The notes under the pieces are model-generated. The model worked only from the letters and a program-made list of their open reading frames with translations, did not search any database and was not told the origin of the DNA. 64,000 bases of DNA, from contig CALMYL010000006.1 in NCBI GenBank assembly GCA_937873695.1, positions 353,185-417,184 of the forward strand, in the 5' to 3' direction. Positions 7,571-51,757 of this stretch are shown here, one piece after another (the stretch's first letter is position 1; each line of letters opens with the position of its first letter). Origin of the DNA: an uncultured Ignavibacteria bacterium. Lineage in GTDB: Bacteria; Bacteroidota; Ignavibacteria; Tepidaquicellales; OLB5. The position numbers and the translations under genes were made by a program.

Positions 7571-7574
7571 TACT

Positions 7575-8297
7575 ATGAATACACAGAATATTAAAACAAT
7601 TTTCACAAAAGAGCTTAAATCGTACTTTAATTCTCCTATTGCGTATATAGTTATGATAGTTTTCATGGCTATATCGGGATTTCTGTTCACGATGAGCTTT
7701 TTTCAGATAAATATCGCTTCAATGCGCGAATTCTTCGGAAGCTTCTTTATTCAGCTTGTACTGTTCGTGGTATTTATACCCGCAATAACAATGCGCAGCT
7801 TTTCTGAAGAGAAAAAACAGGGTACACTTGAACTGCTGCTTACCAAACCTATTACCGATATTGAGCTTATCCTGGGTAAGTACCTTTCAGCTCTTACTTT
7901 AATAGTGATCACACTTTCTCCGACTATACTATACTTCATTATCATAAAAATGATCGGTCCTATTGATTTCTGGCCGTTCTTAACCAGTCTTTTGGGTTAT
8001 ATATTGATGAGTGCATTTTTTATAGGTATCGGGGTATTTGTTTCATCGCTCACAGAAAATCAGATAATAGCATTCATAGTTAGTGTGCTTATTTGTCTGT
8101 TTTTCTTCCTGTTCGGCAAGCTGCTTATGGTCTTCCCTTCGTCAGTAGTTTCGTTCTTTGAATACCTGACGACGGATTATCACTTAAGCAATATTTCAAG
8201 AGGTGTCATTGATTCACGGGTACTTATTTATTACTTCTCAATGATATTCTTTACTATTTTTCTTACTAAAGTTTCACTTGAAAGCAGAAAGTGGTAA
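7575..8297 (+). CDS. gldF: ABC-2 type permease, GldF-like
   Basis: 240 residues with about six hydrophobic segments, starting 4 bp after the ATPase gene. The beginning (FTKELKSYFNSPIAYIVMIVF) and the stretch TMRSFSEEKKQGTLELLLTKPI around residues 75-95 are the usual marks of ABC-2 permeases of the GldF/NosY kind. It is expected to form the membrane channel for the GldA-like ATPase. The next gene, a GldG-like protein, follows after 63 bp. The spacing and order match the gldF-gldG arrangement of gliding bacteria; the substrate is unknown. Confidence 0.88.
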   Translation: MNTQNIKTIFTKELKSYFNSPIAYIVMIVFMAISGFLFTMSFFQINIASMREFFGSFFIQLVLFVVFIPAITMRSFSEEKKQGTLELLLTKPITDIELILGKYLSALTLIVITLSPTILYFIIIKMIGPIDFWPFLTSLLGYILMSAFFIGIGVFVSSLTENQIIAFIVSVLICLFFFLFGKLLMVFPSSVVSFFEYLTTDYHLSNISRGVIDSRVLIYYFSMIFFTIFLTKVSLESRKW

Positions 8298-8360
8298 TTG
8301 CCGGAGGCAATGGTATTAACAATCCAATAAAATAAATAAACAGCATTTTAATATACATAT

Positions 8361-11201: not shown

Positions 11202-13634
11202 TTAGGCTTTAGAGCGTGTTAACGATAATAATGCTGCAAATGCAGCCAGGTAACATACAGCACCTGTCCAGTAAGAAGCTGAAATGCCGTAGTTCATTGC
11301 TATTATGATTGAAAGTACTGTTGCAAGTACGCTCATTACTCCGTTTATGCCCCAAAGCCATGGAGTGATACCCGCTGAGCGGCTGCCCGCAAGTTTCATC
11401 CCGGCAGGAAAAGCCATCCCCAAAAATAACCCCATTGGGAATAATGTAAGCACAGATATCAGTACCCGTACTTCAGTTGAATACTCTCTGAAGGCATGAA
11501 TTATGTATGGTGTAAATATCCCGAACAATACTAATACCAGAAGCAGGATCGCAAATCTTATCCTGCTGCCCGAAATAAAATCTGGCTTATCGGCGCCGCT
11601 GAAGTAGCTGCCAATACCGCTTGAAATAAGCATTGTGAAAAGCGCGGCCGCCAGGCTGTATGTGGGGTGCCCAAGAAAAATATTAAGCCTCTGTATCTGC
11701 GATATTTCTATGAGCATAAAACCCAGACCTATTGCTATGAAAAATACAAAAAATCCGGAAGTACCTTTCAGTTTAACTTTTTTAGCGGTGATCTTCAGCG
11801 GAATTACTATACACAAAAATGAGAGCAGTGACATTGTACCTGCAAGCGTAAGCAGTATAAATATAGCTTTGGCATTAAAGCCCATATCCCATGTATTCCA
11901 GAACTGCGTATTCGGCAGGTCAGAGAAATTCATATAATGAAAAAAGAACGGTTTATCATCGCTGGGTGAAGTAATATTAAGCGGGAAATTATTGTTAAGA
12001 TTGCCTCTTAAGTTCTCATTGGTGAGTTTTACAAATATTGAGTCAGCCGCATGCCGGGGAGATATTATATCTTCAAACTCAAAAGTTTTGCAAAGGCTGT
12101 CAACCATGTTAAGATCATTGCTGCTGAAAGGAGACCGGCTGATAAGAAGTGTACCAGTGCCGCTTCTGTCTTCAATTCTTTCCTGCTGCTGGCACTTTAT
12201 CAGCATTACATGGCTGCGTATATCATTTATGCCTGATTCGGTAAGCGCGTCAGCGGTAATATTCATTAGCCTGTAATGCTCAATTGGCTTGGCGCGGTAA
12301 AACCTGGTTACTGTCAGTATGCCGTCAGGCTTGAGTCTGCTGAAGAGCAGCTTCCATGTTTCGGTGGTATATAATGCGTTTTCCGTCAGAACAAATGCTC
12401 CTGAAGCAGCAGCCGACCAGTTATCAATTACAGAGACCTGTATTATATCAAACTTCCTTGCAGTATCCATTCTTTGAATGTAACTGCGGGCTTCATCGCC
12501 AACAAATTCAACATTCGGATATTTATCCAGGTGACCTGTGAAATTCCCGAAATCATCGTTTATCGCACTTATCATATCCTTGTTGATTTCTATGCCAAGG
12601 ATATTCTTTTGACCGAATGCCAATGAAGAGAGGACATCTCGTCCGGCGCCGCTGCCAATTATCATTATATCGCCATGCGGCCTTAAATACTGCGCCAGGT
12701 TTGAGACATCATATTTAAGATGAGAGAGCTCTGAAGTATCTCCGTTAAAGTGCGAAAGCACTGTAGTTGAGTGCGCGTCAATATTCAGCATAAGCTGCCT
12801 TATCTTCCGCGAGCGGTCATACTTATTGCTTAATCCCCAGCCAAAGGGTGTTTCGTATTTGGTTGAGTCGCCATCAATACTAACGCGGCTGAATGAATTC
12901 CACTTTTCATATAATGGTTTTTCGGACCATTCGCCGCGAACCCAGAACAATCTGAGAAGCGGTTCATGTTTCTGCACTAAAATCGTATGAAATACAGCAA
13001 ATACAAGAATTACCAATGAGAAGACTGCAATTCCTTTGCCTAAAGAAGTTTTGATCTCTGAATTTTTTTTGAATGAGTATGCAGCGGCAGCGGAAAATAA
13101 CGCGGTAATGAATACGCCCGTGGGTCCGCCGGAAACATTAAGGACCACAACAACCAGTATGCAGCCCAAAGATGCACCAATAAGATCCGCAGCATAAAGT
13201 TTATTCACTGAGCCGGGAAATCTTGTAAGCAGCAGTGATATACATATTCCGCTGAAGACGAACGGTACTGATATTTCAGCGTAAGTAAAAGCTGTGACTG
13301 CCATACCGAATAATGACATTCCGTGAATGAAGGGAATAAACAAATGGATAAGGAAACTCAGCAGGGTTGCCAGACTAAAATAAAGCGCCTGTTTGGTTAG
13401 TATTGTGTTTATTTTTTCCTGGGGGAATTTATGCGGGAAGATATAAACTATTATTGCGCCTACTGTCATCCCGAACATAGCCAGTGATACAGCCATAAAC
13501 GCAAAATGATAGCCCATTGTAACGCTGAATATTCGGGTTAGCAGAATTTCATACATTAACGTTGAAAGCGCTACCAGAAATATACCTATATAATTGCTGC
13601 GTGATACCGGTGTCTGATTTTGGGCTGAATTCAT
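11202..13634 (-). CDS. Membrane protein with spermidine-synthase-like methyltransferase-fold domain
   Basis: 810 residues. An N-terminal block of about seven membrane segments (residues 15-220) is followed by a soluble Rossmann-type domain: GSGAGRDV (327-334), acidic E349 at the end of strand 2 (LGIEINKD), GDEARSY near 379 and FDIIQVSVID near 395. This layout is that of spermine/spermidine synthases. A second membrane block fills residues about 590-805. Such fusions are widespread in environmental bacteria and annotated as spermine synthase domain membrane proteins; real polyamine synthesis has not been shown for most. The gene begins 76 bp after the end of the six-gene T9SS operon, without an obvious terminator between them, so read-through is possible. 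Confidence 0.82.
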   Translation of the reverse strand: MNSAQNQTPVSRSNYIGIFLVALSTLMYEILLTRIFSVTMGYHFAFMAVSLAMFGMTVGAIIVYIFPHKFPQEKINTILTKQALYFSLATLLSFLIHLFIPFIHGMSLFGMAVTAFTYAEISVPFVFSGICISLLLTRFPGSVNKLYAADLIGASLGCILVVVVLNVSGGPTGVFITALFSAAAAYSFKKNSEIKTSLGKGIAVFSLVILVFAVFHTILVQKHEPLLRLFWVRGEWSEKPLYEKWNSFSRVSIDGDSTKYETPFGWGLSNKYDRSRKIRQLMLNIDAHSTTVLSHFNGDTSELSHLKYDVSNLAQYLRPHGDIMIIGSGAGRDVLSSLAFGQKNILGIEINKDMISAINDDFGNFTGHLDKYPNVEFVGDEARSYIQRMDTARKFDIIQVSVIDNWSAAASGAFVLTENALYTTETWKLLFSRLKPDGILTVTRFYRAKPIEHYRLMNITADALTESGINDIRSHVMLIKCQQQERIEDRSGTGTLLISRSPFSSNDLNMVDSLCKTFEFEDIISPRHAADSIFVKLTNENLRGNLNNNFPLNITSPSDDKPFFFHYMNFSDLPNTQFWNTWDMGFNAKAIFILLTLAGTMSLLSFLCIVIPLKITAKKVKLKGTSGFFVFFIAIGLGFMLIEISQIQRLNIFLGHPTYSLAAALFTMLISSGIGSYFSGADKPDFISGSRIRFAILLLVLVLFGIFTPYIIHAFREYSTEVRVLISVLTLFPMGLFLGMAFPAGMKLAGSRSAGITPWLWGINGVMSVLATVLSIIIAMNYGISASYWTGAVCYLAAFAALLSLTRSKA

Positions 13635-13710: not shown

Positions 13711-15462
13711 TTACTTCAGCACTACCATCTTTTTTGTTTGGGTAAATTCAGTTGTAATTAGCGAATAAAAGTACACTCCGCTTGGGATATTTTCGGCGTT
13801 CCAGTCAATTTCGTAAATGCCGGGCTTGAGATTTTCATTCACCAACACTGCAATTTCTTTGCCGAGTACATCGTAAATTTTAAGGGAGACCCCAAGTTTG
13901 TCTCCCACTGAAAAACCAGTTCTTCGACCTGACAGGGGGAGATTTAGAGGGGGTATTTGAAAACGAATTTTTGTTGCCGGGTTAAACGGATTCGGATAAT
14001 TCTGGAACAGCTCATATTTTTGCGGGATTTCAGTATTTATCGGTTCAATTCCAATTGGCACGCAAGTCCTGAAATCGTTGTAATAATATTTCAGGGCTGA
14101 GTCTGATAACGATAGCAGCGCGCATACATTTTGGAAATTATTACCTCCGTCACGGGTTATCATATAACTCAATACTACAATTTGAGTATCAGCAGAGTTC
14201 ATTGTAACAGGACCGGTACTCATGAAATGCCTGTAATCACCAGCCACGCTGTCATACCAACCGGTTCTCTCACAGGCATTGCCATTATATCTAAAACATG
14301 TTTGCGCCCCGGTTAAATAATTTATATAAGGTTCACTGCAACCGTTAAGACCTCTCATATAATGGTAGGCCGTAATTGCATTATCAGGATCTGAAATACA
14401 ATAGTTTGTGCTTCCCGAAAAGAAGTTGAACGCGGTTAACCCATTCTGCTTGAATCCAATTAAAGTATCGTAAGGTAATTTAGCTGTATCAAAATTATTC
14501 CCCGTAAGTTTCAAAGGACTCTGTAAAAACCTTATCCCTATAGAAGGCGGATTTATACCATAGTCAATATCGTTATTATCAAAATTATAGTGGAATCCCA
14601 TACTACGAACTGTATCGCAACCAATGGCATCATCTTGCGAATCACCTAAATCCGGATCATTTACCATTGTAATAAATGTACTATCCCAAACCAGCGAGCT
14701 TTTATTGATTATGCGATATTTAATAAAATACATATCACGTAGAGGTACACAATTGAAGTTAAATACCATTTGTTGAATTTCTACTCCCAAGGGTAGGGTA
14801 CCTCCCGGAAGGGAAATTTCAGATGAGTGAATATTGTTAGTACAGTTAGTGTAATCCATGAATACCATAAACAGCAGCTCTTCAGGTCTGGCTGTCATCC
14901 CGTTTCCAATTCCCGGCCTGTCGCCATTCCATGCCGGCTGATAGCCGGGTATTCCGTTCACTTCAACATATGGAGCTCCTTTTTGTACGGGCCACGCTGC
15001 CCAGGAATCATAATTGAAAGTATATTGTCTTCCTCCTGCCATTTTGTATCGTGTACCGCCTGAAAACAGGGATTGATCATTTAAATGTACATAATAACCG
15101 CGCCATGATGGATCACTGCAAACAGATGATGGCGGCACCTGACCAATTACGGGAATGTTTCCGGGTGAATAATGTGTATTATAGAATGACGCTGCTAAGC
15201 GAAGTTCACGCTGGGGTCCGACCTTTGCGCCTATATACATACCTGAAGTAAACACTGCAGTTAATCTTTGTGTTGCACCGGCGGGCCAGATAAATCCCGC
15301 TGCGCCACTGGAAAAGGTTACTTTGTCATAATTGAAATATCCATCAGTTCTGAAAACTGCGTTGATGTTGTTGCCCTGCATAAAAATGCTTTGGGCAGGG
15401 GCTAGGCTTTGTGCATTAATGCTTAATGAAAATGCTAGCAAAATCAGAATAAAAGTCTTCAT
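13711..15462 (-). CDS. T9SS cargo paralogue 1 of tandem operon (last gene)
   Basis: 583 residues. Signal peptide 1-18 (MKTFILILLAFSLSINAQ). Residues 19-260 are nearly the same in all five paralogues (SLAPAQSIFMQGNNINAVF at the start). Residues 261-415 are the variable part; it opens with an Asp-rich NDPDLGDSQDDAIGCD (268-283) that looks like a calcium-binding loop. Residues 417-475 are conserved again. The sorting domain starts at 488 (NYPNPFNP) and contains a 23-residue insertion (about 504-526) encoded by inverted-repeat DNA. The start ATG overlaps the previous stop as ATGA. The last 300 bp are identical by eye to those of the gene at 22706-24466. Secreted; function not recognised. Confidence 0.87.
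   Translation of the reverse strand: MKTFILILLAFSLSINAQSLAPAQSIFMQGNNINAVFRTDGYFNYDKVTFSSGAAGFIWPAGATQRLTAVFTSGMYIGAKVGPQRELRLAASFYNTHYSPGNIPVIGQVPPSSVCSDPSWRGYYVHLNDQSLFSGGTRYKMAGGRQYTFNYDSWAAWPVQKGAPYVEVNGIPGYQPAWNGDRPGIGNGMTARPEELLFMVFMDYTNCTNNIHSSEISLPGGTLPLGVEIQQMVFNFNCVPLRDMYFIKYRIINKSSLVWDSTFITMVNDPDLGDSQDDAIGCDTVRSMGFHYNFDNNDIDYGINPPSIGIRFLQSPLKLTGNNFDTAKLPYDTLIGFKQNGLTAFNFFSGSTNYCISDPDNAITAYHYMRGLNGCSEPYINYLTGAQTCFRYNGNACERTGWYDSVAGDYRHFMSTGPVTMNSADTQIVVLSYMITRDGGNNFQNVCALLSLSDSALKYYYNDFRTCVPIGIEPINTEIPQKYELFQNYPNPFNPATKIRFQIPPLNLPLSGRRTGFSVGDKLGVSLKIYDVLGKEIAVLVNENLKPGIYEIDWNAENIPSGVYFYSLITTEFTQTKKMVVLK
13884..13906 (-). repeat. In-frame inverted repeat, type III (copy A)
   Basis: Arms GGGAGAC and GTCTCCC with a 9-nt spacer, part of an about 70-nt inserted segment (to about 13953) that also holds a CTCCCCCTGTCAGG-like stretch. 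It encodes part of residues 504-526 of the sorting domain of paralogue 1. Confidence 0.6.
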
Positions 15463-17171
15463 TTTAATACTACCATCTTTCTTGTTTGGGTAAATTCAGT
15501 TGTAATTAGCGAATAAAAGTACACTCCGCTTGGGATATTTTCGGCGTTCCAGTCGATCTCGTAAATGCCGGGCTTGAGATTTGCATTCACCAGCACGGCA
15601 ATTTCTTTGCCGAGTACGTCGTAAATTCTCATGGAGACGTCCCGCCGGGTCGTCTCTACAAAAGCAGGAATACTGAATTTTAATTTTGTTATGGGGTTAA
15701 ATGGATTCGGGTAATTCTGGAACAGCTCATATTTTTGCGGGATTTCAGTACTTATCGGTTCAATTCCAATTGGCACGCATGTTCTGAAATCGTTGTAATA
15801 ATATTTCAGGGCTGAATCAGATAATGATTGGAGCGCGCATACATTTTGGAAATTATTTCCGCCATCGCGAGATATCATATAGCTTGACATAACAATTTGT
15901 GTATCTCTGGAATTCATAACAAACGGACCAGAGCCAATGAAATTTTTCTTGTCAGCCGGCAAACTATCATACCAACCTGTGCGCTGACAAGCATTTCCGC
16001 TGTAAAGGAATTTTGTCGGATGCCCGGAAACCCAGTTTATCATCTGCCGACCGCATTCATCTAATCCTGTCAGATAGTAGTATGCTGTTGTATCTTTATC
16101 GGGATCACCATGACACAAACCGTTTTTAAATGAATTATGAGTCGTCATTCCGATTTGTTTAAATCCAGAAAGAGTGTCATATGGTAGTTTTGCTGTGTCG
16201 GTATTAACCCCGGTAAAACGCAACGGACTTTGTAATAATCTGATACCAACAGTCGGTGGATTTGTTCCATAATCAGAGTCATCATTATCGAAGTTGTAAA
16301 CAAATCCTAAATCCCTCGCTGTATCACAACCGGTTGCATCATCTCCTGCATTACCAAGATCCGAATCACTGCAAATTCCTATGTAAGTACTATCCCAAAC
16401 CAGTGAACTTTTATTGATAATTCTGTATTTTACAAAATACATATCCCGCAAAGGGAAACAATTAAAATTGAAGACAGTTTGTTGTATCTCTACACCCAAT
16501 GGTCTTGAGCCCCCCGGTAAACTTAACTCACTTGTATGAACTGAATCGGTACAATTAGTGTAATCCATATAAACCATAAACAAGATCTCTTCCGGTCTTG
16601 CTGTCATACCATTGCCGATACCGGGTCTGTCACCATCCCAGGCAGGCTGGTAACCGGGAATTCCGTTGACTTCTACATAAGGGGCGCCTTTTTCTACAGG
16701 CCATGCAGCCCATGAATCGTAATTGAATGTGTATTGCCTTCCTCCTGCCAATTTATTCCTTGTACCGCCTGAAAACAGGGATTGATCATTTAAATGTACA
16801 TAATAACCGCGCCAAGAAGGGTCACTGCAGATAGATGATGGCGGTACCTGCCCTATAACCGGTATATTGCCGGGTGAATAATGTGAATTGTATGTTGATG
16901 CGGCCAGTCTCAGTTCATGCTCAGGTCCGGCTTTCGCGCCAATCCATATACCTGTTGCAAAAATTGCAGTCATTCTTTGAGTAGCTGTTACGGGCCATAT
17001 AAATCCGGCTACACCGCTTGTAAAAGATACCTTATCATAATTAAAATAGCCGTCAGTCCTGAAAACTGCATTAATGTTATTACCCTGCATAAAAATGTTC
17101 TGAACCGGTGCGAGGCTCTGAGAATTAATGCTTGAAGTTAAGAAAAGTAAAACTAATATTAAAGTTTTCAT
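15459..17171 (-). CDS. T9SS cargo paralogue 2 of tandem operon
   Basis: 570 residues, same build as its neighbours: signal peptide about 1-17, conserved N-terminal half, variable centre with CSDSDLGNAGDDATGCD, conserved GPFVMNSRDTQIVMSSYMISRDGG block, linker VPIGIEPISTEIPQKYELF and a T9SS sorting domain. The sorting domain insertion here reads AFVETTRRDVSM and is encoded by a GAGACG-type palindrome (15634-15656). Both ends overlap the neighbours by 4 bp (ATGA), so translation is probably coupled along the operon. The central part differs strongly from the paralogues while the ends match. No enzymatic motif recognised. Confidence 0.87.
   Translation of the reverse strand: MKTLILVLLFLTSSINSQSLAPVQNIFMQGNNINAVFRTDGYFNYDKVSFTSGVAGFIWPVTATQRMTAIFATGIWIGAKAGPEHELRLAASTYNSHYSPGNIPVIGQVPPSSICSDPSWRGYYVHLNDQSLFSGGTRNKLAGGRQYTFNYDSWAAWPVEKGAPYVEVNGIPGYQPAWDGDRPGIGNGMTARPEEILFMVYMDYTNCTDSVHTSELSLPGGSRPLGVEIQQTVFNFNCFPLRDMYFVKYRIINKSSLVWDSTYIGICSDSDLGNAGDDATGCDTARDLGFVYNFDNDDSDYGTNPPTVGIRLLQSPLRFTGVNTDTAKLPYDTLSGFKQIGMTTHNSFKNGLCHGDPDKDTTAYYYLTGLDECGRQMINWVSGHPTKFLYSGNACQRTGWYDSLPADKKNFIGSGPFVMNSRDTQIVMSSYMISRDGGNNFQNVCALQSLSDSALKYYYNDFRTCVPIGIEPISTEIPQKYELFQNYPNPFNPITKLKFSIPAFVETTRRDVSMRIYDVLGKEIAVLVNANLKPGIYEIDWNAENIPSGVYFYSLITTEFTQTRKMVVLK
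15634..15656 (-). repeat. In-frame palindrome, type I (copy A)
   Basis: Arms GAGACGTCCC and GGGTCGTCTC (one mismatch) with a GCC spacer, inside the sorting domain of paralogue 2, 175 bp before its stop. Confidence 0.75.
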
Positions 17172-19276
17172 TTTACTATCACCATCTTTCTGGTTTGTCT
17201 ATAATTATCAGTAAAAAGTGAATAGAAATAAACACCGCTTGTGAAATTCGAAGCATTCCATTCGACTTCGTAAATTCCGGATGTGAGATTTTCGTTAACC
17301 AGCACAGCAATTTCTTTACCGAGTATATCGTAAATCTTCAGTGAGACGACCCGCAGGGTCGTCTCTGCAAAAGAGGGAATACTGAATCTTATTTTTGTTA
17401 CCGGGTTAAACGGGTTTGGATAATTCTGCAAAAGCATAAATCTTTCAGGAATTTCTGCTGAAATCGGGGTTATTCCAATTCCTCCGTTTGTAGTTCTCAT
17501 TATTCCGCCGTTATCACCCACAACCCAGCCGTGGTTTTCATCAATAAAAAATAGCGAACTTACTGAAATTGAATTGCTGTCAGTATTCTGTATACTCCAG
17601 TTCACGCCGCCGTTGGTGGTCTTCCTTATTATGTTGGAGGTGTTTACCCAGCCGGTTTCTGTATTGATAAAATACATATCTCCTCTGTAGCTTCCGCCTG
17701 TAGGGTATGATATCCAGTTTTCACCCATGTTCGTTGATCTCATAAAATTCCCGGCAGCAGAAGTAATGGCAAAACCAGTGACTCCAATAAACTGAATAGT
17801 TTGTGTTGTATTAACCAGAACCCTGTACCAGTTCACTCCTCCGTTTGTTGTTTTAAACATTCCGCTACCGCCTATAAGACCCGTATTTTCGTTGATGAAG
17901 AATAAGTCATTCACATACATATAACTTATTGGAGGGGTTGTTGTGATTGCGGTTTTTACCCAGGAATTTCCTGAATTAGTGGTTTTTATAATAGCACTGG
18001 AATTTCCTGCTGCCCAGCCGGTGTTTGGATTCAGGAAGTGAATAGAATTTATTTGTAATGAATCCCTGTAAACAAGCTGCCAACTGGCGCCCGAGTCCGT
18101 TGTCCTGAAGACGATACCCAAATACCCCTGTGTACCTCCGATATATCCGGTGATGTTGTTTACAAACAGCAGAGAGTTCAATGTATTTTCTGTACCAAGA
18201 TTCCGATAATTCCAGTTAACGCCTCCGCTAGTAGTGGTAAGCAAAACACCGTGAGTACCAACTGCATTACCTGTTGACTGGTTATTAAAAAAAACTGATT
18301 TGAGCCTTTCTTTGGTGAGATATTCTCTGTGTGCAATATCCCAGTCATTTCCATTGTTGAAAGATCTGAAAATTATTCCGCTATCAGAAGCACACCAGAT
18401 CGTATTTGCTTCAGCAATTGAAGCGGAGTAAACAATTGAAGAGAGTCCGTTTGCGTTATTTTGAAACCAGTTATTTCCGCTATTTGTAGTTTTCAGAAAT
18501 GCGAAAGGAGCGCCGAAAATGTATCCTGTGCTGGCCGAACTGAATTCGACAGTATTTTGTATTGAATAATTGGTAAAGTATGGCAGCCAGTTGGTTCCGC
18601 GGTTTGTTGTACGGTAAATAATACTGCCGGTACCCGTAACAATGCATGTTTGATTTCCCCCAAATTTTACGCCTGTAAAAAATCCCGTATAAATATCGTT
18701 AAAAAGATTCCAGTTAGCTCCGCCGTTTGTTGTAAAAAGTATTGTACCCCAGTCGCCACCACAGACCCCAAACTCGCTATCTGCAAATGCTATAGCGTTC
18801 AAATTATTGGCTGTGCCTGAACTTAAACTGACCCAATTATAGCCTGAGTTGGTGGTTTTCTTTATTACTCCTCCATAACCGCAGTACCATCCATTATTGC
18901 GGTCAAGAAAACAGATACTTTTTACATTGGAAACTGTTGTATCTGTCGTGATCCAGCTATTGCCGCTGTTTGAAGTGAAATGAATGTACTTTTCCTCAAA
19001 TACCCAACCCGTATCAATATTAAGGAATTGAAAACAATTCATTGAGTTGTAATTGTTGTGTGAAATTGTATGCTTGATCCAGCTTTGGGCGGCATTTGTT
19101 GTTTTCCTTACGTCATATTGCGTTAAAACCCACCCGGTCTGCTGGTTAAAAAATATGAGATCTTTGAAGTATGGACCGTAAATATACTCGCCTGAATAGA
19201 TTAATTCCCAGCCGCCCTGGGAGAATGTTGCTGTTTGAGATAAAATAAAAAGTAATGTTATAATAGTCTTTTTCAT
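17168..19276 (-). CDS. T9SS-exported Ycf48-type propeller inside the tandem operon
   Basis: 702 residues. Signal peptide 1-19 (MKKTIITLLFILSQTATFS). About fourteen blades marked by T-T-N-x-G-x-x-W repeats (KTTNSGYNW, FTTNGGANW, RTTNRGTNW, KTTNGGVNW and others), again compatible with two seven-bladed propellers. It is unrelated in its body to the five paralogues around it, yet it has the same 4-bp ATGA junctions, and its sorting domain carries the same kind of palindrome insertion (SFAETTLRVVSLK, DNA 17343-17365) and the LGKEIAVLVNENL segment of the paralogues. It may bind or scaffold the neighbouring proteins at the surface; that is inference from position only. Confidence 0.88.
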   Translation of the reverse strand: MKKTIITLLFILSQTATFSQGGWELIYSGEYIYGPYFKDLIFFNQQTGWVLTQYDVRKTTNAAQSWIKHTISHNNYNSMNCFQFLNIDTGWVFEEKYIHFTSNSGNSWITTDTTVSNVKSICFLDRNNGWYCGYGGVIKKTTNSGYNWVSLSSGTANNLNAIAFADSEFGVCGGDWGTILFTTNGGANWNLFNDIYTGFFTGVKFGGNQTCIVTGTGSIIYRTTNRGTNWLPYFTNYSIQNTVEFSSASTGYIFGAPFAFLKTTNSGNNWFQNNANGLSSIVYSASIAEANTIWCASDSGIIFRSFNNGNDWDIAHREYLTKERLKSVFFNNQSTGNAVGTHGVLLTTTSGGVNWNYRNLGTENTLNSLLFVNNITGYIGGTQGYLGIVFRTTDSGASWQLVYRDSLQINSIHFLNPNTGWAAGNSSAIIKTTNSGNSWVKTAITTTPPISYMYVNDLFFINENTGLIGGSGMFKTTNGGVNWYRVLVNTTQTIQFIGVTGFAITSAAGNFMRSTNMGENWISYPTGGSYRGDMYFINTETGWVNTSNIIRKTTNGGVNWSIQNTDSNSISVSSLFFIDENHGWVVGDNGGIMRTTNGGIGITPISAEIPERFMLLQNYPNPFNPVTKIRFSIPSFAETTLRVVSLKIYDILGKEIAVLVNENLTSGIYEVEWNASNFTSGVYFYSLFTDNYRQTRKMVIVK
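17343..17365 (-). repeat. In-frame palindrome, type I (copy B, perfect)
   Basis: Arms GAGACGACCC and GGGTCGTCTC pair over all 10 bp around a GCA spacer. It encodes ETTLRVVS in the sorting domain of the propeller protein, 175 bp before the stop. Confidence 0.8.
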
Positions 19277-20991
19277 TTTAACACCACCATTTTTTTTGTT
19301 TGGGTAAATTCATATGTAATTAGTGAATAAAAATACACGCCGCTTGGAATATTTTCAGCATTCCAGTCAATTTCGTAAATGCCGGGTTTGAGATTTTGGT
19401 TTACCGGCACCGCGATTTCTTTGCCAAGTACATCGTAAATTCTCAGGGAGACGACCCGCCGGGTCGATTCTGCAAAAGCGGGAATACTGAATCTGATTTT
19501 TGTAGCAGGATTAAACGGGTTCGGATAATTCTGGGACAGCTCAAATTTTTGGGGGATATCTGTACTTATCGGCTCAATTCCAATTGGCACGCATGTGCGG
19601 AAATCGTTGTAATAGTACTTTAACGCAGAATCAGATAGCGATTGCAGTGCGCATACATTCTGGAAATTATTACCGCCATCGCGGGTTATCATATAGCTTA
19701 ATACTACAATTTGTGTATCACCGGAGTTCGATTTAAAAGGACCGGAATTCTGAACATATCTTCTTTGACCCTGTACGCTGTCATACCATCCAACTCTTCT
19801 ACAAGCATCTCCGTTAAATCTGTATTTAGATGGTGCACCTGTTACCCAATTAATTAGCTGATTTCCGCACCCATCTAAACCCTGCATGAAACTATAAGCT
19901 CTTACTGCGTTTTCAGGATCACCGGTACATTCATTACCGGCATTCAAGAATTTATTATATGAAGTCATTCCTATTTGTTTATATCCAACTAGGGTATCAT
20001 ATGGTAATTTAGCGGTATCTGAATTACTTCCTGTAAAAACCAATGGGCTTTGAACAAATCTAGTTCCAAATGAAGGAGGATTTGGTCCATAATTTGGATC
20101 TGTATTGTTCATTTTGTACTGAAAACCAAGATCTCTGGTTGAATCACAACCTGCCGGCTCATCTGAAAAGTTTCCAATATCTGGGTCATTAGCAGAAGAA
20201 AAATAAACACTATCCCAGTTTAATGAACTTTTATTGATTACTCTGAATTTTGTGAAATACATATCACGCAATGGAATGCAATTAAAATTGAATACAATTT
20301 GCTGTACTTCTACACCCAAAGGTAATGTCCCTCCCGGAAGACTTAATTCACTTGAATGAATATTATCTGTGCAATTAGTATAATCCATAAACACCATAAA
20401 TAAAATTTCTTCGGGCCTTGCTGTCATTCCGTTGCCAATTCCGGGTCTGTCTCCATTCCAAGCGGGCTGATATCCGGGTATTCCGTTTACTTCAACATAA
20501 GGCGCGCCTTTTTGTACAGGCCACGCTGCCCATGAATCATAATTGAATGTATATTGCCTGCCACCTGCCATTTTATATCGTGTACCGCCCGCAAATAGCG
20601 ATGGGTCAGTAAGCTGAACATAATATCCTCTCCATGATGGGTCACTGCAGACTGATGATGGCGGAACCTGTCCAATAACCGGAATATTGCCCGGTGTATA
20701 GTGTGTATTATAGAATGATGCTGCTAGTCTAAGTTCCCGCTCGGGACCCACCTTTGCGCCTATCCAAATACCTGAAGTAAACACAGCGGTAAGCCTTTGC
20801 GGGGATGTTGCAGGCCAGATGAAACCTGCTTGACCGCTTGAAAAGGTAACTTTATCATAGTTGAAGTAACCGTCAGTTCTGAATACTGCGTTGATGTTGT
20901 TGCCCTGCATAAAAATGCTTTGGGCAGGGGCCAGTGATTGCGAATTTACGTTAATTGAGAAAAACAGAATTAGTAAAGATATCTTTTTCAT
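19273..20991 (-). CDS. T9SS cargo paralogue 3 of tandem operon
   Basis: 572 residues. Signal peptide about 1-17, then the conserved family N-terminus (SLAPAQSIFMQGNNINAVF), block NGMTARPEEILFMVFMDYTNC near 190-208, and a variable central region with ANDPDIGNFSDEPAGCDSTRD. The second conserved block SNSGDTQIVVLSYMITRDGG precedes the linker and sorting domain. The domain insertion reads AFAESTRRVVSLR, encoded by a partly decayed GAGACG palindrome (19448-19470). ATGA overlaps on both sides. The conserved ends and divergent centre fit a family whose central domain determines specificity; target unknown. Confidence 0.87.
   Translation of the reverse strand: MKKISLLILFFSINVNSQSLAPAQSIFMQGNNINAVFRTDGYFNYDKVTFSSGQAGFIWPATSPQRLTAVFTSGIWIGAKVGPERELRLAASFYNTHYTPGNIPVIGQVPPSSVCSDPSWRGYYVQLTDPSLFAGGTRYKMAGGRQYTFNYDSWAAWPVQKGAPYVEVNGIPGYQPAWNGDRPGIGNGMTARPEEILFMVFMDYTNCTDNIHSSELSLPGGTLPLGVEVQQIVFNFNCIPLRDMYFTKFRVINKSSLNWDSVYFSSANDPDIGNFSDEPAGCDSTRDLGFQYKMNNTDPNYGPNPPSFGTRFVQSPLVFTGSNSDTAKLPYDTLVGYKQIGMTSYNKFLNAGNECTGDPENAVRAYSFMQGLDGCGNQLINWVTGAPSKYRFNGDACRRVGWYDSVQGQRRYVQNSGPFKSNSGDTQIVVLSYMITRDGGNNFQNVCALQSLSDSALKYYYNDFRTCVPIGIEPISTDIPQKFELSQNYPNPFNPATKIRFSIPAFAESTRRVVSLRIYDVLGKEIAVPVNQNLKPGIYEIDWNAENIPSGVYFYSLITYEFTQTKKMVVLK
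19448..19470 (-). repeat. In-frame palindrome, type I (copy C, decayed)
   Basis: Arms GAGACGACCC and GGGTCGATTC with two mismatches around GCC. Same position in the sorting domain as copies A and B, 175 bp before the stop of paralogue 3. Confidence 0.7.
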
Positions 20992-22709
20992 TTTAAAACC
21001 ACCATTTTTTTTGTTTGGGTAAATTCTTCTGTAATAAGTGAATAAAAATACACACCGCTTGGAATATTTTCAGCATTCCAGTCGATTTCGTAAATGCCGG
21101 GTTTGAGGTTTTCGTTAACAAGCACAGCAATTTCTTTGCCGAGAACATCGTAAATTTTAAGTAACACACCCCGTCCTTCGGACACCCCTCTCGAGAGGGT
21201 AATATTAAATCTTATTTTTGTTATGGGGTTAAATGGATTCGGGTAATTCTGGAACAGCTCATATTTTTTAGGGATTTCAGTACTTACTGGCTGAATGCCT
21301 ATGGGAATGCATGTTCTGAAATCGTTGTAGTAATACTTCAGGGCAGAATCAGATAGCGACTGAAGCGCGCATACATTCTGGAAATTATTCCCGCCATCGC
21401 GGGTTATCATGTAGCTTAGCACTACAATTTGTGTATCACCGGAGTTCATTGTAACCGGACCCATATTTGAAAACGATCTCTTATCACCCGGCAAGCTGTC
21501 ATACCATCCCGTTCTTGTACAGGAATTCCCTGAAAACCGGAAAGTAGTTTCCTGATTTGTTAACCAGTTTATGATAGGTTCACTGCAGCCCCATTTGCCT
21601 CTCATATAATGATATGCATTTAAAGCATTATCGGGATCACCCTGACATTGATTTTGACCTCCAATAAAACCATTAAATCCTGACATATTGGTTAATTTGT
21701 ACCCAATCAATGTATCATAGGGGAGCTTTACGGTATCAAGATTACTATTAGTATATTTCATCGGTGATTGCAATATTCTAATGCCAAGAGCCGGCGGGTT
21801 AACGCCATAATCATAATCATTATTGTCAAAATTATAAGTAAAACCTAAATTTCTGGATGTATCGCATCCGTAAGCATCGTCACCAGCGTCCCCAACATCA
21901 GGATCGTTTATATTTGTTATGTAGGTACTATCCCATACGGTATTACTTTTGTTAATTATCCTGTATTTAATGAAATACATATCACGCAAAGGGATACAAT
22001 TGAAATTGAATACCAATTGATGAACTTCAACTCCCAAAGGCAAAGTACCGCCAGGAAGATCAATTTCAGATGAATGTATAGTATCCCTGCAGTTAGTGTA
22101 ATCCATAAAAACCATGAAGAGCAGTTCTTCAGGTCTGGCCGTCATTCCATTGCCTATTCCGGGTCTGTCGCCATTCCATGCAGGCTGATAGCCGGGGATT
22201 CCATTGACTTCAACATATGGCGCACCTTTCTGCACAGGCCAGCTTGCCCATGAATCATAATTGAAAGTGAATTGCCTTCCTCCTGTTGTCTTATATCTTG
22301 TGCCGCCCGAATACAGAGAAGGGTCAGTTAGCTGGACATAATAACCCCGCCAGGAAGGATCATCACATACTGAAGATGGCGGAACCTGCCCAATTACCGG
22401 AATATTGCCCGGTGTATAGTGTGAATTAAACATTGAAGCTGAAAGCCTCAATGTTCTTTGAGTACCGGTTTTAGCTCCAATCCACAGTCCCGAAGCGAAT
22501 ACATCGGTTAATCTTTGAGGTGCAGTTACCGGCCATATAAAACCGGCTACACCGGAAGGGAATGTAACTCTATCGTAATTAAAATAGCCGTCAGTTCTGA
22601 AAACTGTGTTAATATTGTTGCCCTGCATAAAAATATTTTGAACAGGTGCAAGACTTTGTGCATTAAGACTTAATGAATATGTAAGTAAAAGCAGAATAAA
22701 TATTTTCAT
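20988..22709 (-). CDS. T9SS cargo paralogue 4 of tandem operon
   Basis: 573 residues, signal peptide 1-17 (MKIFILLLLTYSLSLNA). The N-terminal half is conserved but reads NTVFRTDGYFNYDRVTFPSG, a variant shared with the gene upstream of it. The variable centre carries INDPDVGDAGDDAYGCDTSR. Its sorting domain insertion differs from all others: TLSRGVSEGRGVLLK, encoded by DNA at 21167-21199 made of two hairpins (GTCC-TTC-GGAC and the 14-bp palindrome CCCTCTCGAGAGGG). Junctions with both neighbours are ATGA overlaps. Secreted, function not recognised. Confidence 0.87.
   Translation of the reverse strand: MKIFILLLLTYSLSLNAQSLAPVQNIFMQGNNINTVFRTDGYFNYDRVTFPSGVAGFIWPVTAPQRLTDVFASGLWIGAKTGTQRTLRLSASMFNSHYTPGNIPVIGQVPPSSVCDDPSWRGYYVQLTDPSLYSGGTRYKTTGGRQFTFNYDSWASWPVQKGAPYVEVNGIPGYQPAWNGDRPGIGNGMTARPEELLFMVFMDYTNCRDTIHSSEIDLPGGTLPLGVEVHQLVFNFNCIPLRDMYFIKYRIINKSNTVWDSTYITNINDPDVGDAGDDAYGCDTSRNLGFTYNFDNNDYDYGVNPPALGIRILQSPMKYTNSNLDTVKLPYDTLIGYKLTNMSGFNGFIGGQNQCQGDPDNALNAYHYMRGKWGCSEPIINWLTNQETTFRFSGNSCTRTGWYDSLPGDKRSFSNMGPVTMNSGDTQIVVLSYMITRDGGNNFQNVCALQSLSDSALKYYYNDFRTCIPIGIQPVSTEIPKKYELFQNYPNPFNPITKIRFNITLSRGVSEGRGVLLKIYDVLGKEIAVLVNENLKPGIYEIDWNAENIPSGVYFYSLITEEFTQTKKMVVLK
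21167..21199 (-). repeat. In-frame double-hairpin repeat, type II
   Basis: Contains GTCC-TTC-GGAC (21173-21183) followed by the perfect 14-bp palindrome CCCTCTCGAGAGGG (21186-21199). It sits at the same sorting-domain site as the type I copies, in paralogue 4. Confidence 0.7.
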
Positions 22710-24466
22710 TTCAGCACCACCATCTTTTTTGTTTGGGTAAATTCAGTTGTAATTAGCGAATAAAAGTACACTCCGCTTGGGATATTTTCGGCGTTCCAGT
22801 CAATTTCGTAAATGCCGGGCTTGAGATTTTCATTCACCAACACTGCAATTTCTTTGCCGAGTACATCGTAAATTTTAAGGGAGACCCCAAGTTTGTCTCC
22901 CACTGAAAAACCAGTTCTTCGACCTGACAGGGGGAGATTTAGAGGGGGTATTTGAAAACGAATTTTTGTTGCCGGGTTAAACGGATTCGGATAATTCTGG
23001 AACAGCTCATATTTTTGAGGGATTTCAGTACTTATCGGTTCAATCCCAATTGGCACGCATGTTCTGAAATCGTTGTAATAATATTTCAGGGCTGAATCTG
23101 ATATCGATTGCAGCGCGCAAACATTCTGCAGATTATTGCCGCCATCGCGGGTTATCATGTAGCTTAGCACTACAATTTGTGTATCACCGGAGTTCATTGT
23201 AACCGGACCAGTATTAAATAAACCTCTGGAGTCTCCCTGGCTGCTATCATACCATCCAGTTCGGTTGCATGCGTTACCTGAAAACTTGAAAGAAGTAGGC
23301 TTACCTGTTACAAAATTGTAAAATGTATTTCCACATCCATCTTTGCCCCGCATAAAATTATATGCATATTCAGCTAAATCCGGATCACCCGTGCATTCAT
23401 TACCACCTCCAACAAAATAAGTAAAGCCGGTTAAACCTGTTAATTTAAATCCAATTAAAGTATCATATGGTAATATTGCTGTATCACTATTTAGACCGGT
23501 ATTATTGATTGGACTTTGTACAACTTTCATACCCACAGCAGGTGGATTCATACCATAATCCTGATCGTTATTATCAAAATTGTATTGATAAACCAAATTC
23601 CTAACAGAATCACTTCCAACAGCATCGTCTGATGACTCACCTAAATCGGGATCATTAGCCATTGATATATAAGTACTATCCCAATTCAGAGAACTTCTGT
23701 TAATAATTCTGTACTTAATAAAATACATATCACGCAGGGGAAAACAGTTAAACATAAAATTAATTTGTTGTATTTCTACACCCATAGGTAATGTTCCGCC
23801 GGGAAGAGATAACTCTTGAAAATGCTGAGTATTTGTACAATTTGTGTAATCCATGTAGACAAAGAAGGATAGCTCCTCGGGTCTTGCAGTCATTCCATTG
23901 CCAATTCCCGGTCTGTCACCATCCCAGGCAGGCTGGTAACCCGGTATACCGTTTACTTCAACATACGGCGCGCCTTTTTGTACCGGCCAAGCTGCCCATG
24001 AGTCATAATTGAAAGTGTACTGCCTTCCTCCTGCCATTTTGTATCGTGTACCGCCTGTAAATAGTGTAGGGTCGGTTAGCTGAACATAATAACCGCGCCA
24101 TGAAGGGTCACTGCACACTGATGATGGCGGCACCTGGCCAATTACAGGAATGTTGCCCGGAGAGTAATGTGTATTATAGAATGACGCTGCTAAGCGAAGT
24201 TCACGCTGGGGTCCGACCTTTGCGCCAATCCAAATACCTGAAGTAAACACAGCGGTAAGCCTTTGAGGTGCAGTTGCCGGCCATATAAAACCGGCTACAC
24301 CGGAAGGGAATGTAACTCTATCATAATTAAAATATCCGTCAGTTCTGAAAACTGCATTAATGTTGTTGCCCTGCATGAAAATTGACTGTGCGGGTGCCAG
24401 AGACTGTGATTGGATTATTGACGCTGCTGCCAATAAGAGAATAATAAGATATACGAGGGTTTTCAT
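22706..24466 (-). CDS. T9SS cargo paralogue 5, first gene of the tandem operon
   Basis: 586 residues. Signal peptide 1-20 (MKTLVYLIILLLAAASIIQS). Conserved family N-terminus; variable centre with ANDPDLGESSDDAVGSDSVR, in which the usual Cys of GCD is Ser (VGSD). Second conserved block and linker VPIGIEPISTEIPQKYELF follow, then a sorting domain with the same 23-residue insertion as paralogue 1 (PPLNLPLSGRRTGF and onward). The first gene of the operon, with a promoter-like sequence just upstream. Its last 300 bp match those of paralogue 1, and a shorter stretch near 24170-24230 also matches paralogue 1, so these genes look like a conversion mosaic. Confidence 0.87.
   Translation of the reverse strand: MKTLVYLIILLLAAASIIQSQSLAPAQSIFMQGNNINAVFRTDGYFNYDRVTFPSGVAGFIWPATAPQRLTAVFTSGIWIGAKVGPQRELRLAASFYNTHYSPGNIPVIGQVPPSSVCSDPSWRGYYVQLTDPTLFTGGTRYKMAGGRQYTFNYDSWAAWPVQKGAPYVEVNGIPGYQPAWDGDRPGIGNGMTARPEELSFFVYMDYTNCTNTQHFQELSLPGGTLPMGVEIQQINFMFNCFPLRDMYFIKYRIINRSSLNWDSTYISMANDPDLGESSDDAVGSDSVRNLVYQYNFDNNDQDYGMNPPAVGMKVVQSPINNTGLNSDTAILPYDTLIGFKLTGLTGFTYFVGGGNECTGDPDLAEYAYNFMRGKDGCGNTFYNFVTGKPTSFKFSGNACNRTGWYDSSQGDSRGLFNTGPVTMNSGDTQIVVLSYMITRDGGNNLQNVCALQSISDSALKYYYNDFRTCVPIGIEPISTEIPQKYELFQNYPNPFNPATKIRFQIPPLNLPLSGRRTGFSVGDKLGVSLKIYDVLGKEIAVLVNENLKPGIYEIDWNAENIPSGVYFYSLITTEFTQTKKMVVLK
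22882..22904 (-). repeat. In-frame inverted repeat, type III (copy B)
   Basis: Same sequence as the copy at 13884-13906 (arms GGGAGAC / GTCTCCC) with the same flanking insert, in the sorting domain of paralogue 5. Confidence 0.6.
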
Positions 24467-24479
24467 ATCTTTTTTTTAA

Positions 24480-24508
24480 AACATAGCTAAAAAAACAAGA
24501 ATTGTCAA
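24480..24508 (-). promoter_or_regulatory. Candidate sigma-70-like promoter of the T9SS operon
   Basis: On the minus strand a perfect TTGACA (24503-24508) is followed after exactly 17 bp by TATGTT (24480-24485, four of six consensus bases). The inferred start of transcription would leave a leader of only about 7 nt before the ATG at 24466, and no Shine-Dalgarno is present. The rest of the 24467-24670 gap shows no gene. Confidence 0.35.
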
Positions 24509-24670
24509 TAAACAAATGAGAAATTATTAATTTAAGAGGTCATTGATTCCCGCAGTTGCTCATTAACTAAATGAGGTAATATACATCGAAAATTTTGAGA
24601 AAATATCAGGGAATTCACATTTTTTTGATAGATTTCCCAAAAGGGGCTTTTTCTCTCAAAGACAGAAATT

Positions 24671-26266
24671 CTATTTTTTTCTCACATAGCCAAAGTAATT
24701 CAGCCAAAATGTAACCGTGATGAAAGCCAAAACTGCAATGATTGTTGTAAGCATACTTTTATATACAAACAACTGCAGCAGAATAACAATTGTGCCATAT
24801 ATGAAAGGATAAATAATTGATGTCATTCTTTGCAGGGAATTGATAAGTGTGTTTTCACGGGTGAATGGTAAGCTTCTGCTTAACAGGTTATATATAGAAT
24901 TGTACAAATTAGCCGCAGCGAAAATGAATATTGTATGCAATAATGCCTGGTGCATCGGTATCTTTATTGTAAAAATTATTCCAAGTCCTATACATGCGGG
25001 GATAAGCAGGTACACCACAAAAAACTTCCTGAAGCCGTTTCTGAAATTTCTTTTTGATCTTGTTGGATATGAATCATAAACCCACGAAGCGCCGGAATAA
25101 TTTGTTACCTTAACCCCTATTATGGCAGTGTTTAAAACTACCAGCAAGCTCAGCAAAAGTGAAATATGGAAAACAGGTTTGATATCAAAATAATTTTTAT
25201 CGAACGGCGGGGGCAGCTGATTTGTTATCAGTGCAAATATTCCAAGACCCAATGGAATAATTATCATAGGCAGTATTGCCAGCCTTACGGTTTTATCTTT
25301 GTAATATAATGCGCGTATCAAACCGTATGAAGAGCGCTCAGTGTTATTGCGCAAATATACGTTCTGAATAAGATCACTTATCATTGTGAAGATAAAAAAC
25401 CTCTTTTTCTCCGTTCCGGCAGATGAAATGATCCTTGAGTTCAGGAACTTATCTCTGATGTGCACGTAGTTTTCATCAAGGTACATTTTGAGGCTCAGGT
25501 AACTTAAGATAGTGATCAGCAAAGGCATAATAAGTTTGATTATCAAGCCCGCTTCAAGCAGGTACTGATTGCGCGTTGTTAAAAACGCGAACCATGCAGG
25601 CGGGAAGTAATCAATTACTCCCTTTTGTTGAAGTGAAGCTATGTAACCGTTTACGCTGCTTCCGGGTCTGCCTGTTATGCCAAAAGAAATGAACTGGTAA
25701 GCCATTATCAGCAGCAGTATCATCCCTGCCTGGAATATCATAGTGTATGAACCAATACTTTTTGTCCTGAAAACCTTAAGAGCCATGCTGTACAGCAGTA
25801 TAAGAACATTGGCAGTGAAAAAACAAAGCATCAAAGCTGAAATATAGAAAAGAAGTGCCCGCGGAAATGAACGCAATATAGCATAGTAATAAATACTTCC
25901 CGGCAAAAGCAGCGGTAACGATAATAACAGAAGGTAACGGGTCATCATATACATTTTTGCATTCACAAGAAGTTTCAGGTCAATAGGCATTGCTGCAAGA
26001 ATTTCAGCCTCAGTTTTGCTGGTTATCAGGTTATCAAGCTCAGTAATGATTGTGAAAGCGATAATAAGCGAGTAGAACAAAAATGTTAAGAATGAGAACT
26101 GGAATCCTGTCGGGTCAGCGTTTTGTTTAAGCAGTATCCAGGGTAAAAATACCCCCGGTATGAAATATGAAATATTGAGCAGCAGCATCTTTCTGCCGGA
26201 GCCGGTCTTGCTCCTGGTTTCAAGCTTGAGAAGCAGGCTGCCAAGTATTTTTACTTTATTTATCAA
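24671..26266 (-). CDS. Multi-pass membrane protein, ABC-2 permease-like
   Basis: 531 residues with about ten hydrophobic segments. Around residues 75-125 the pattern is that of ABC-2 permeases: ELDNLITSKTEAEILAAMPI, then LLVNAKMYMMTRYLLLLSLP. There is no ATPase gene next to it, so it may use one encoded elsewhere. The start is TTG at 26266, backed by an AAAAGGGA Shine-Dalgarno 4 nt upstream; no ATG lies nearby. It begins 14 bp after the mltG stop and is the last gene of a three-gene operon (GT-C, mltG, this). Substrate unknown. Confidence 0.75.
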   Translation of the reverse strand: MINKVKILGSLLLKLETRSKTGSGRKMLLLNISYFIPGVFLPWILLKQNADPTGFQFSFLTFLFYSLIIAFTIITELDNLITSKTEAEILAAMPIDLKLLVNAKMYMMTRYLLLLSLPLLLPGSIYYYAILRSFPRALLFYISALMLCFFTANVLILLYSMALKVFRTKSIGSYTMIFQAGMILLLIMAYQFISFGITGRPGSSVNGYIASLQQKGVIDYFPPAWFAFLTTRNQYLLEAGLIIKLIMPLLITILSYLSLKMYLDENYVHIRDKFLNSRIISSAGTEKKRFFIFTMISDLIQNVYLRNNTERSSYGLIRALYYKDKTVRLAILPMIIIPLGLGIFALITNQLPPPFDKNYFDIKPVFHISLLLSLLVVLNTAIIGVKVTNYSGASWVYDSYPTRSKRNFRNGFRKFFVVYLLIPACIGLGIIFTIKIPMHQALLHTIFIFAAANLYNSIYNLLSRSLPFTRENTLINSLQRMTSIIYPFIYGTIVILLQLFVYKSMLTTIIAVLAFITVTFWLNYFGYVRKK

Positions 26267-48310: not shown

Positions 48311-48673
48311 TCAGATCTTAGCCGGGTTAATTTTTGTAAAGTTATTTTTAATATCACCTGTATTTATTGTACCTGCAGGTTCAAACAGCATTACAGATAC
48401 TTCTTCTGTTGCCAAAGGGCAGTGTTCTACACCTTTTGGAATAATAATGAATTCGTTTTCATTTATATCGATATCACCATCACGCAGTTTCATCGTGAAC
48501 CTGCCTTTAACTACATAAAACATCTCATCTTCATTTTCATGTTTATGCCATGTAAACTCACCTTTAAACCTGACAAGCTTTATATGCTGACCGTTCAGTT
48601 CACCCGCAATTATAGGATCCCAATGCTGTTTGATCAGATCCAGTTTTTCATTAACTGATACCTTATTTATCAT
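48311..48673 (-). CDS. Cupin domain protein
   Basis: 120 residues, single cupin. Motif 1: H43, H45, E50 and G57 (WHKHENEDEMFYVVKG). Motif 2: P79, G81 and H84 (IPKGVEHCP). The metal-binding set is complete. Small mononuclear cupins of this type often lack a known substrate. It starts by ATGA overlap with the end of the acetyltransferase gene upstream, so the two should be translated together. Confidence 0.88.
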   Translation of the reverse strand: MINKVSVNEKLDLIKQHWDPIIAGELNGQHIKLVRFKGEFTWHKHENEDEMFYVVKGRFTMKLRDGDIDINENEFIIIPKGVEHCPLATEEVSVMLFEPAGTINTGDIKNNFTKINPAKI

Positions 48674-49194: not shown

Positions 49195-49222
49195 ATATTA
49201 CAGGTTAACTGCTATTAACTTT

Positions 49223-49561: not shown

Positions 49562-49576
49562 CTTTAGAGATTTGGT

Positions 49577-50149: not shown

Positions 50150-50328
50150 GATAATTGACCTTATAGTATTAATTCGTTAAAAATAGAATATGCACATATT
50201 ATCGGTAAGTCGGTGCAAATATACCAATTTTAATCAATTTTTTTTCTATATAAATTTTTACACTTTTCTGAACCGTAAAATCACTAAATTGCAGCTGAAA
50301 GCGCATTTTTGGTAGTTAGTGCGGACTA

Positions 50329-50838: not shown

Positions 50839-50842
50839 TGAT

Positions 50843-51749: not shown

Positions 51750-51757
51750 ATTGAATG

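Follow-up and report, generated by a model that had tools for sequence, protein, structure and literature searches.

An ATGA-coupled array of type IX secretion cargo genes in Ignavibacteria: probably a set of reshuffled surface modules rather than a complex of constant composition

Why would a bacterium string together genes for secreted surface proteins so tightly that each overlaps the next by four bases? This question is raised by positions 13711-24466 of the window (the whole stretch of 64,000 nt analysed here), which according to the ORF listing and profile searches hold six minus-strand genes in a row. Each of their products ends in a type IX sorting domain; five genes are paralogues (type A) and one encodes a YCF48-type propeller (type P). 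The array starts with A1 (22706..24466), which encodes an A-type exported protein of 586 aa as judged by its ORF, profiles, and a structure model and carries a long signal sequence resembling that of the first gene in most other arrays. It continues with the A-type genes A2 (20988..22709; 573 aa), whose ATGA start lies within the end of A1, and A3 (19273..20991; 572 aa), also ATGA-coupled, followed by P4 (17168..19276; 702 aa), a YCF48/BNR beta-propeller with a T9SS sorting domain that is ATGA-coupled on both sides. The last two genes are again of A type, the ATGA-coupled A5 (15459..17171; 570 aa) and A6 (13711..15462; 583 aa), which closes the array with a TAA stop codon. The other A-type paralogues share 77-81% protein identity with A6, and P4 matches PF14870 (E 1e-33) and PF18962 (6.9e-10). 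Both the coordinates of the six genes and their division into five paralogues and one propeller agree with a preliminary description of this DNA. No RNA families or tRNAs were found within the window.

The same description had identified all six proteins as cargo of the type IX secretion system, and they indeed pass the cut-offs of both PF18962 (27 bits) and TIGR04183 (23 bits) in 6/6 cases. The genome also encodes T9SS machinery with PorU at 922 bits and SprA at 916 bits (joined), both above cut-off, which supports the assignment as T9SS cargo. By eye, the N-terminus looks hydrophobic in all six proteins, a possible Sec signal.

As originally reported, a 4-base ATGA overlap is found at 5/5 junctions, both in the ORF list and on reading the junctions themselves, and the downstream ATG is in frame. 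The same in-frame ATGA is present at 35 of the 37 junctions that could be read in the 10 genomes with the array (in G008, where the ORF caller gave false gaps of -94, the frame was read at the stop codon). Of the two exceptions, one coincides with a single-base frameshift within a run of A (G009) and the other falls in a broken draft contig (G003). Outside the array, a -4 overlap joins 1 of 107 same-strand neighbour pairs in the window and nine stretches of its own genome, as counted with a simple ORF caller. Five ATGA junctions in succession are far above this background, though the junctions of the array are not independent because its modules are copies of one another. A genome-wide habit of T9SS genes was rejected as the source of these overlaps, since 0/27 neighbouring same-strand T9SS-T9SS pairs outside the window, taken from nine own-genome stretches picked for dense sorting domains, overlap in this way. 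In other species, -4 overlaps couple translation, as stated in the consulted part of a published study (PMC10666635).

The proposal that the six genes form a single operon is supported at the sequence level by a conserved putative promoter that precedes gene 1 only. This region (24467..24533, minus strand) comprises the conserved block AATTAATAATTTC...TTGACA (24532-24503), a -10-like TATGTT (24485-24480; TTGACA-17-TATGTT), an A-rich stretch, and the ATG at 24466. In an alignment of nine upstream stretches, six genomes have nearly the same block, G008 and G012 a recognisable version, and G010 a weak one; the block has one perfect match genome-wide. Scans for promoters and terminators gave counts at chance level, and we used the conserved block alone. 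Downstream of the array, an 810-aa membrane protein with a weak spermine-synthase-like domain (11202..13634, minus strand) has its own promoter-like block between 13635 and 13710, which is retained in G004, a genome lacking the array at this site. The upstream neighbour (24671..26188, minus strand) is a 505-aa membrane protein with no Pfam match; in genomes without the array, its gene lies directly next to that of the 810-aa protein.

Is this set of genes constant among relatives? A search for the array and its copy number, which the preliminary description had proposed, located it in 10 of 13 genomes of the genus, among which the upstream flank protein shares 65-97% identity; in G006, the contigs break within a flank gene. 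Since other assemblies have the array at the corresponding position, we rejected an assembly artefact. The array is contained in full on a single contig at four loci, where the modules run AAAPAA, APAPA, AAAPPA, and APAPAAA, with 6, 5, 6, and 7 modules, A:P ratios of 5:1, 3:2, 4:2, and 5:2, and differing order, all of these being differences between species and not within one population. An empty site is seen in two genomes of the genus (97% and 64% complete) and in two of the family; the flank genes are separated there by 93 (G004), 80 (G007), 48 (G013), and 23 bases (G014).

The preliminary description had taken the array to be a set made in fixed ratio, perhaps a surface complex; in such a complex, ATGA coupling would have been selected for the stoichiometry of the subunits. 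The coupling itself stood up across the genus and has been retained across deep divergence. A second, divergent A/P array of G007 also has ATGA at 3/4 junctions, and the consulted part of the study cited above (PMC10666635) reports that in E. coli and H. volcanii -4 overlaps are enriched between genes whose products are subunits of one heteromeric complex. In addition, propeller, A, and sorting domain are fused into one protein in six relatives, which makes it plausible that A and propeller are partners, and every array module other than A is a propeller. The fixed set and ratio, however, did not hold up: module numbers, A:P ratio, and order vary by genome, the constant subunit set of a heteromeric complex was not found at the four whole loci, two genomes of the genus lack the array at this site, and the propeller modules of the arrays come from several deeply diverged lineages. 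We therefore consider a fixed complex unlikely, and the array, with its other gene numbers and orders in relatives, resembles rather a kit from which surface proteins are reshuffled.

How such shuffling might work is suggested by the different histories of the two ends of the genes. In trees of 24 complete A genes from 6 genomes (truncated genes dropped), the exported domains are not grouped by genome (15 label changes compared to 16.0 after shuffling, as low in 72/200), whereas the sorting domains are (8 compared to 16.1, as low in 0/200). Larger sets comprised 44 rows of at least 470 aa, excluding one 1096-aa relative and two propeller fusions and with the G003 row trimmed to its A part, and 55 A and P genes whose sorting domain could be excised. 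Within the window, the synonymous difference pS (from complete A genes only, like dN/dS below) is 0.64-0.74 at residues 19-420 and 0.43 in the sorting domain, where A1 and A6 differ by as little as 0.04; cross-genome pairs of one lineage have values of 0.50-0.76 in 7/9 cases and 0.35 and 0.37 in the other two. The longest shared tract spans 294 columns of A1 and A6, i.e., their last ca. 294 bases are nearly identical and the tract extends almost to the junction, and it is together with an A2/A1 tract the most prominent in a run test based on shuffling of the polymorphic sites, which takes no account of rates that vary along the gene. Some sorting domains retain lineage signal (A1 and A6 of G000 with A1 of G011), and some propeller ends group with their own orthologues. 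From these patterns, we infer that the 3' ends are homogenised via gene conversion, with the ATGA junction carried along.

Our main reading, to which we assign a probability of roughly 60%, is that the six genes are one operon acting as an array of interchangeable modules that recombine, are translationally coupled, and act at the surface, perhaps in glycan binding. Each module would consist of a signal sequence, an exported domain, a T9SS sorting domain, and the ATGA with which the following module begins. Homologous recombination between near-identical ends may duplicate, delete, and reorder modules, while gene conversion at the 3' end would renew the sorting signal together with the start of the gene that follows, and each copy would thereby inherit the coupling. 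Termination-reinitiation would pass translation from gene to gene and all members would therefore be exported together, with amounts that probably fall along the message. More speculatively, the locus might serve as a modular expression platform on which diverged lectin-like supersandwiches and propellers are shuffled into a lineage-specific surface set, with neither single-gene promoters nor a dedicated invertase or recombinase. Because each homogenised tract of the sorting signal has the next start codon at its very end, an exported domain that recombination places between two of these ends could be translated, exported, and anchored at once.

The A1/A6 conversion tract reaching almost to the junction could also mean that ATGA coupling has no function and is a mere footprint of module multiplication. 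Tandem A-type genes from a different family of this order (L101) lie 18-126 bases apart and are still retained, and coupling is therefore not required for the A family as such. Without selection, however, some loose junctions would be expected at 65-97% flank identity and near-saturated synonymous sites, but the sole two exceptions are the frameshift and the broken contig described above, so that we regard a functionless footprint as possible but doubtful.

What the modules may display at the surface can be approached through the A-type exported domain, which is present in 53/59 relatives searched. A model of A aligns with the N-terminal part of TxGH116 (Z 18.3, rmsd 4.0, 283 residues) and a model of the whole protein with cellodextrin phosphorylase (Z 18.7, rmsd 3.5, 263 residues), and at moderate model confidence (mean pLDDT 62 and 67, with precursor residues ~98-220 poorly predicted) the predicted fold of the domain is a beta-supersandwich similar to the N-terminal one of GH116/GH94 enzymes. 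In GH116/GH94/GH65-type enzymes, the beta-supersandwich is an N-terminal domain that is followed by an (alpha/alpha)6 catalytic barrel. The predicted fold of A resembles this domain including the following helix (Z ~18 over 260-285 residues), but the protein proceeds to a T9SS sorting domain instead: no barrel is seen, as the predicted domain ends at helix 445-464 and the sorting domain begins at ~489, and sequence similarity to these enzymes is not detectable. The A proteins have no GH Pfam match, and sequence searches against solved structures gave nothing useful for them. We tentatively propose that A is a barrel-less supersandwich serving as a surface-attached carbohydrate-binding or scaffolding module with a varying middle and the propeller as its partner, bearing in mind that likeness of fold does not in itself demonstrate sugar binding.

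Alternatively, tandem copies might simply raise the amount of one protein, with all of them functionally alike. Conservation is strong at residues 19-255 and 421-583 and dN/dS is low from residue 19 onward (0.05-0.18), as expected for such a dosage array, which would however predict young, near-identical copies. Instead, the copies are old, since even within one genome their synonymous sites are almost saturated except at the 3' end, their lineages are common to several species, and the middle region (residues 256-420) differs at ~29% of non-synonymous sites, making a dosage function quite improbable. Hypervariation of loops in this middle region was not supported (mean entropy of 1.11 in coil versus 1.36 in strand/helix), and with a dN/dS of 0.18 at saturated dS neither positive nor, more broadly, diversifying selection is demonstrated there.

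Many genes of T9SS organisms among the Ignavibacteria encode exported proteins without known role, and at least 150 sorting domains were scored in this analysis. The array offers a compact and testable case, with a natural series of loci carrying 4-7 modules, an empty site, and a measurable coupling junction, and the ties of the widespread A domain to the propeller via fusions provide a concrete hypothesis for the role of these abundant proteins.

The preliminary description knew of no comparable system, which is too strong. In Flavobacterium psychrophilum, a tandem cluster of leucine-rich-repeat (LRR) T9SS cargo genes occupies a 21-kb region with 16-23 ORFs depending on the strain (PMC8400371), and these genes carry TIGR04183 labels (PMC5682007). 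Like our array, this cluster consists, as far as the consulted parts of these reports describe it, of consecutive paralogues with TIGR04183 domains and varies in copy number, in that case between isolates and at a locus repetitive for short reads. The exported domain there is LRR, whereas our modules gave no leucine-rich-repeat match and carry a propeller or predicted supersandwich instead; the variation lies within one species there and was compared only between species here; and the consulted parts of the descriptions mention neither ATGA coupling nor propeller modules nor a lineage conflict between domain and sorting signal. In the literature searched, we found no published description of total ATGA coupling, propeller mixing, and homogenised 3' ends. 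With operons coupled by -4 overlaps, the array shares ATGA at each junction and a single putative promoter, but its members are paralogues varying in number and order rather than fixed subunits. Porphyromonas gingivalis, likewise a T9SS organism, diversifies its surface proteins by domain rearrangement and allelic exchange with gene conversion as a proposed source of variants, according to the consulted part of a published study (PMC5266723); exchange is described there at single loci, whereas here it would act on a coupled multi-gene array.

The array consists of six consecutive minus-strand open reading frames, in order of transcription A1 (22706-24466), A2 (20988-22709), A3 (19273-20991), P4 (17168-19276), A5 (15459-17171), and A6 (13711-15462), and we confirmed all five of the 4-base ATGA stop/start overlaps that the preliminary description had placed between them, each of them in frame. 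All six genes carry a type IX secretion system (T9SS) sorting domain above curated cut-offs; P4 is a YCF48/BNR propeller, whereas the only part of the five A proteins with a Pfam match is the sorting region. The host genome (G000; 3.78 Mb in 30 contigs) encodes both the PorU sortase and the SprA channel, and at least 150 sorting domains were scored in it. Across nine other G000 stretches picked for dense sorting domains and analyzed with a simple ORF caller, a 4-base overlap was found at none of 27 same-strand pairs of neighboring T9SS cargo genes and, with the window included and the array excluded, at only one of the 80 remaining same-strand pairs. Clustered T9SS cargo genes are frequent in G000, but coupled clusters are not. 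The same genome holds (L045:1894-16809; G000:C17:45894-60809) nine T9SS cargo genes in tandem that are uncoupled, with gaps of 13 to 291 bases. Elsewhere in the window, homologs of gldA, gldF, and gldG lie near the array on the opposite strand (6635-10094; TIGR03522, TIGR03518, and TIGR03521 matches, all under curated cut-offs) in a neighborhood that is the same in several relatives, and a run of small minus-strand genes at 48670-52698 encodes a GNAT acetyltransferase, a DinB-like protein, a DoxX-like protein, and two AHSA1-domain proteins.

We searched 59 relatives with a profile built from the five A exported domains and detected members in 53, though outside the genus mostly as the second half of the domain only. 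Named genomes related to G000 are MAGs from the Ignavibacteria, for example Chlorobi bacterium OLB5, which NCBI assigns to the order Candidatus Tepidaquicellales. The array itself is present in 10 of the 13 genomes of the genus with varying module number and order, and is missing from G004 and G007; the contigs of G006 break within the flank gene. Four arrays are whole on a single contig (AAAPAA in the window, APAPA in G002, AAAPPA in G009, and APAPAAA in G011), all between genes for a 505-aa membrane protein upstream and an 810-aa membrane protein downstream. In five further genomes (G001, G005, G008, G010, and G012), the contigs break within the array yet link it to at least one flank gene, and the array contig of G003 is joined to neither. 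At the empty site, the flank genes are 93 (G004) and 80 (G007) bases apart with nothing between them, and 48 (G013) and 23 (G014) bases apart in two genomes of the same family. Counting every array contig, ATGA overlaps in frame occur at 35 of the 37 junctions; the two others, the first junction of G009 and one on the broken contig of G003, may be sequencing errors. In G009, the reading frame of gene 1 is lost at a run of A close to the end of the gene (L037:6310-6350), which uncouples the next gene and may reflect either such an error or real slippage. The window array is real, well conserved, and unusual, and it is probably one operon.

Related genes also occur at other sites. G007, which lacks the main array, has a second, divergent array (L100:3631-12190; G007:C125) that reads APAAA in the direction of transcription, with ATGA overlaps at three of four junctions and a spacing of +4 at the fourth, and G028 carries five A-type genes in tandem, 18 to 126 bases apart. 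A 1093-aa protein with an N-terminal A domain and a weakly PorZ-like C-terminus (L050:9920-13201; G000:C8) is single-copy in most genomes of the genus, adjoins a TonB-dependent receptor, a PorV/PorQ-family protein, and a GWxTD protein, and may be a housekeeping form of the family.

Separate trees of the exported and sorting domains of 24 complete A genes from six genomes are in conflict. Exported domains are not grouped by genome (15 label changes versus a shuffled mean of 16.0; 72 of 200 shuffles gave a count as low) and form lineages common to several genomes, such as window A5 with one gene each from G002, G005, G009, and G011; only the three genes of G012 cluster. Sorting domains, in contrast, are grouped by genome (eight label changes versus 16.1; none of 200 as low), and bigger sets of 44 and 55 rows agree. 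Among the window A genes, synonymous difference (pS) is near saturation over residues 19-420 (0.64 to 0.74) and 0.43 in the sorting domain, falling to 0.04 between A1 and A6; for nine cross-genome pairs of one lineage, sorting-domain pS is 0.50 to 0.76 in seven and 0.35 to 0.37 in two. A run test found a tract of 294 columns shared by A1 and A6 and shorter ones for A2/A1, A6/A5, and A3/A1. This tree conflict, the low sorting-domain pS, and the shared tracts point to gene conversion acting mainly at the 3' ends of the array genes. Because the next start codon lies within the last four bases of the 3' end, conversion and unequal crossing-over could carry the ATGA junction along, which would explain complete coupling without five independent origins.

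Alignment of nine stretches upstream of gene 1 (that of G010 being weak) revealed a block of ca. 65 bases up to the start codon, near-identical in six genomes and recognizable in two more, with no conservation further upstream. The block contains a putative promoter, TTGACA-17-TATGTT, 13 bases ahead of the ATG, and its upstream half has a single mismatch-free occurrence in the whole G000 genome. Since the 810-aa gene has a separate conserved block that is kept in array-less G004, the array is an insert with one predicted promoter of its own.

Sequence searches of A against solved structures gave no useful match. AlphaFold2 models of A1 (30-row alignment; mean pLDDT 61.8, with ten-residue blocks over 241-460 mostly at 71 to 92) and of the exported domain alone (mean pLDDT 67.4, pTM 0.77) both match the N-terminal beta-supersandwich region of GH116, GH94, and GH65-type enzymes, including cellodextrin phosphorylase (Z 18.7, rmsd 3.5, 263 residues) and TxGH116 (Z 18.3, rmsd 4.0, 283 residues). 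In each structure search, nothing but carbohydrate-active enzymes appears among the best 50 rows, and almost all of them are of these kinds. In such enzymes the catalytic barrel comes after a helix that follows the sandwich; A is predicted to share sandwich and helix (445-464) but not the barrel, and our guess, made from the fold, is that it might bind sugar. Variation between copies peaks at residues 256-420 (dN 0.37 versus about 0.1 in most other parts) and is not confined to predicted loops there.

All non-A modules of the arrays are propellers (six by Pfam, the rest by a P4 profile), and they fall into several diverged lineages, suggesting that the propeller slot is either refilled or old. 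With 94 PF14870 matches in G000, the presence of a propeller alone is weak evidence. Stronger evidence comes from a scan of the called ORFs (250 aa or longer) of sampled loci, which turned up six distinct single-chain proteins that combine a propeller with an A domain and a sorting domain, in G007, G008, G011, G025, G028, and G037. The earlier proposal of a surface complex made in fixed ratio gains partial support from these fusions, but the fixed ratio itself is not supported.

A literature search covering few subscription journals found no publication that combines T9SS with translational coupling. The locus is best read as a coupled array whose exported modules recombine. The nearest kind, judging from the literature compared (PMC8400371, PMC10666635, PMC5682007, PMC5808330, and PMC5266723), are tandem T9SS cargo arrays such as the LRR arrays of F. 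psychrophilum, of which the window array is, on the best reading, a variant that is itself new.
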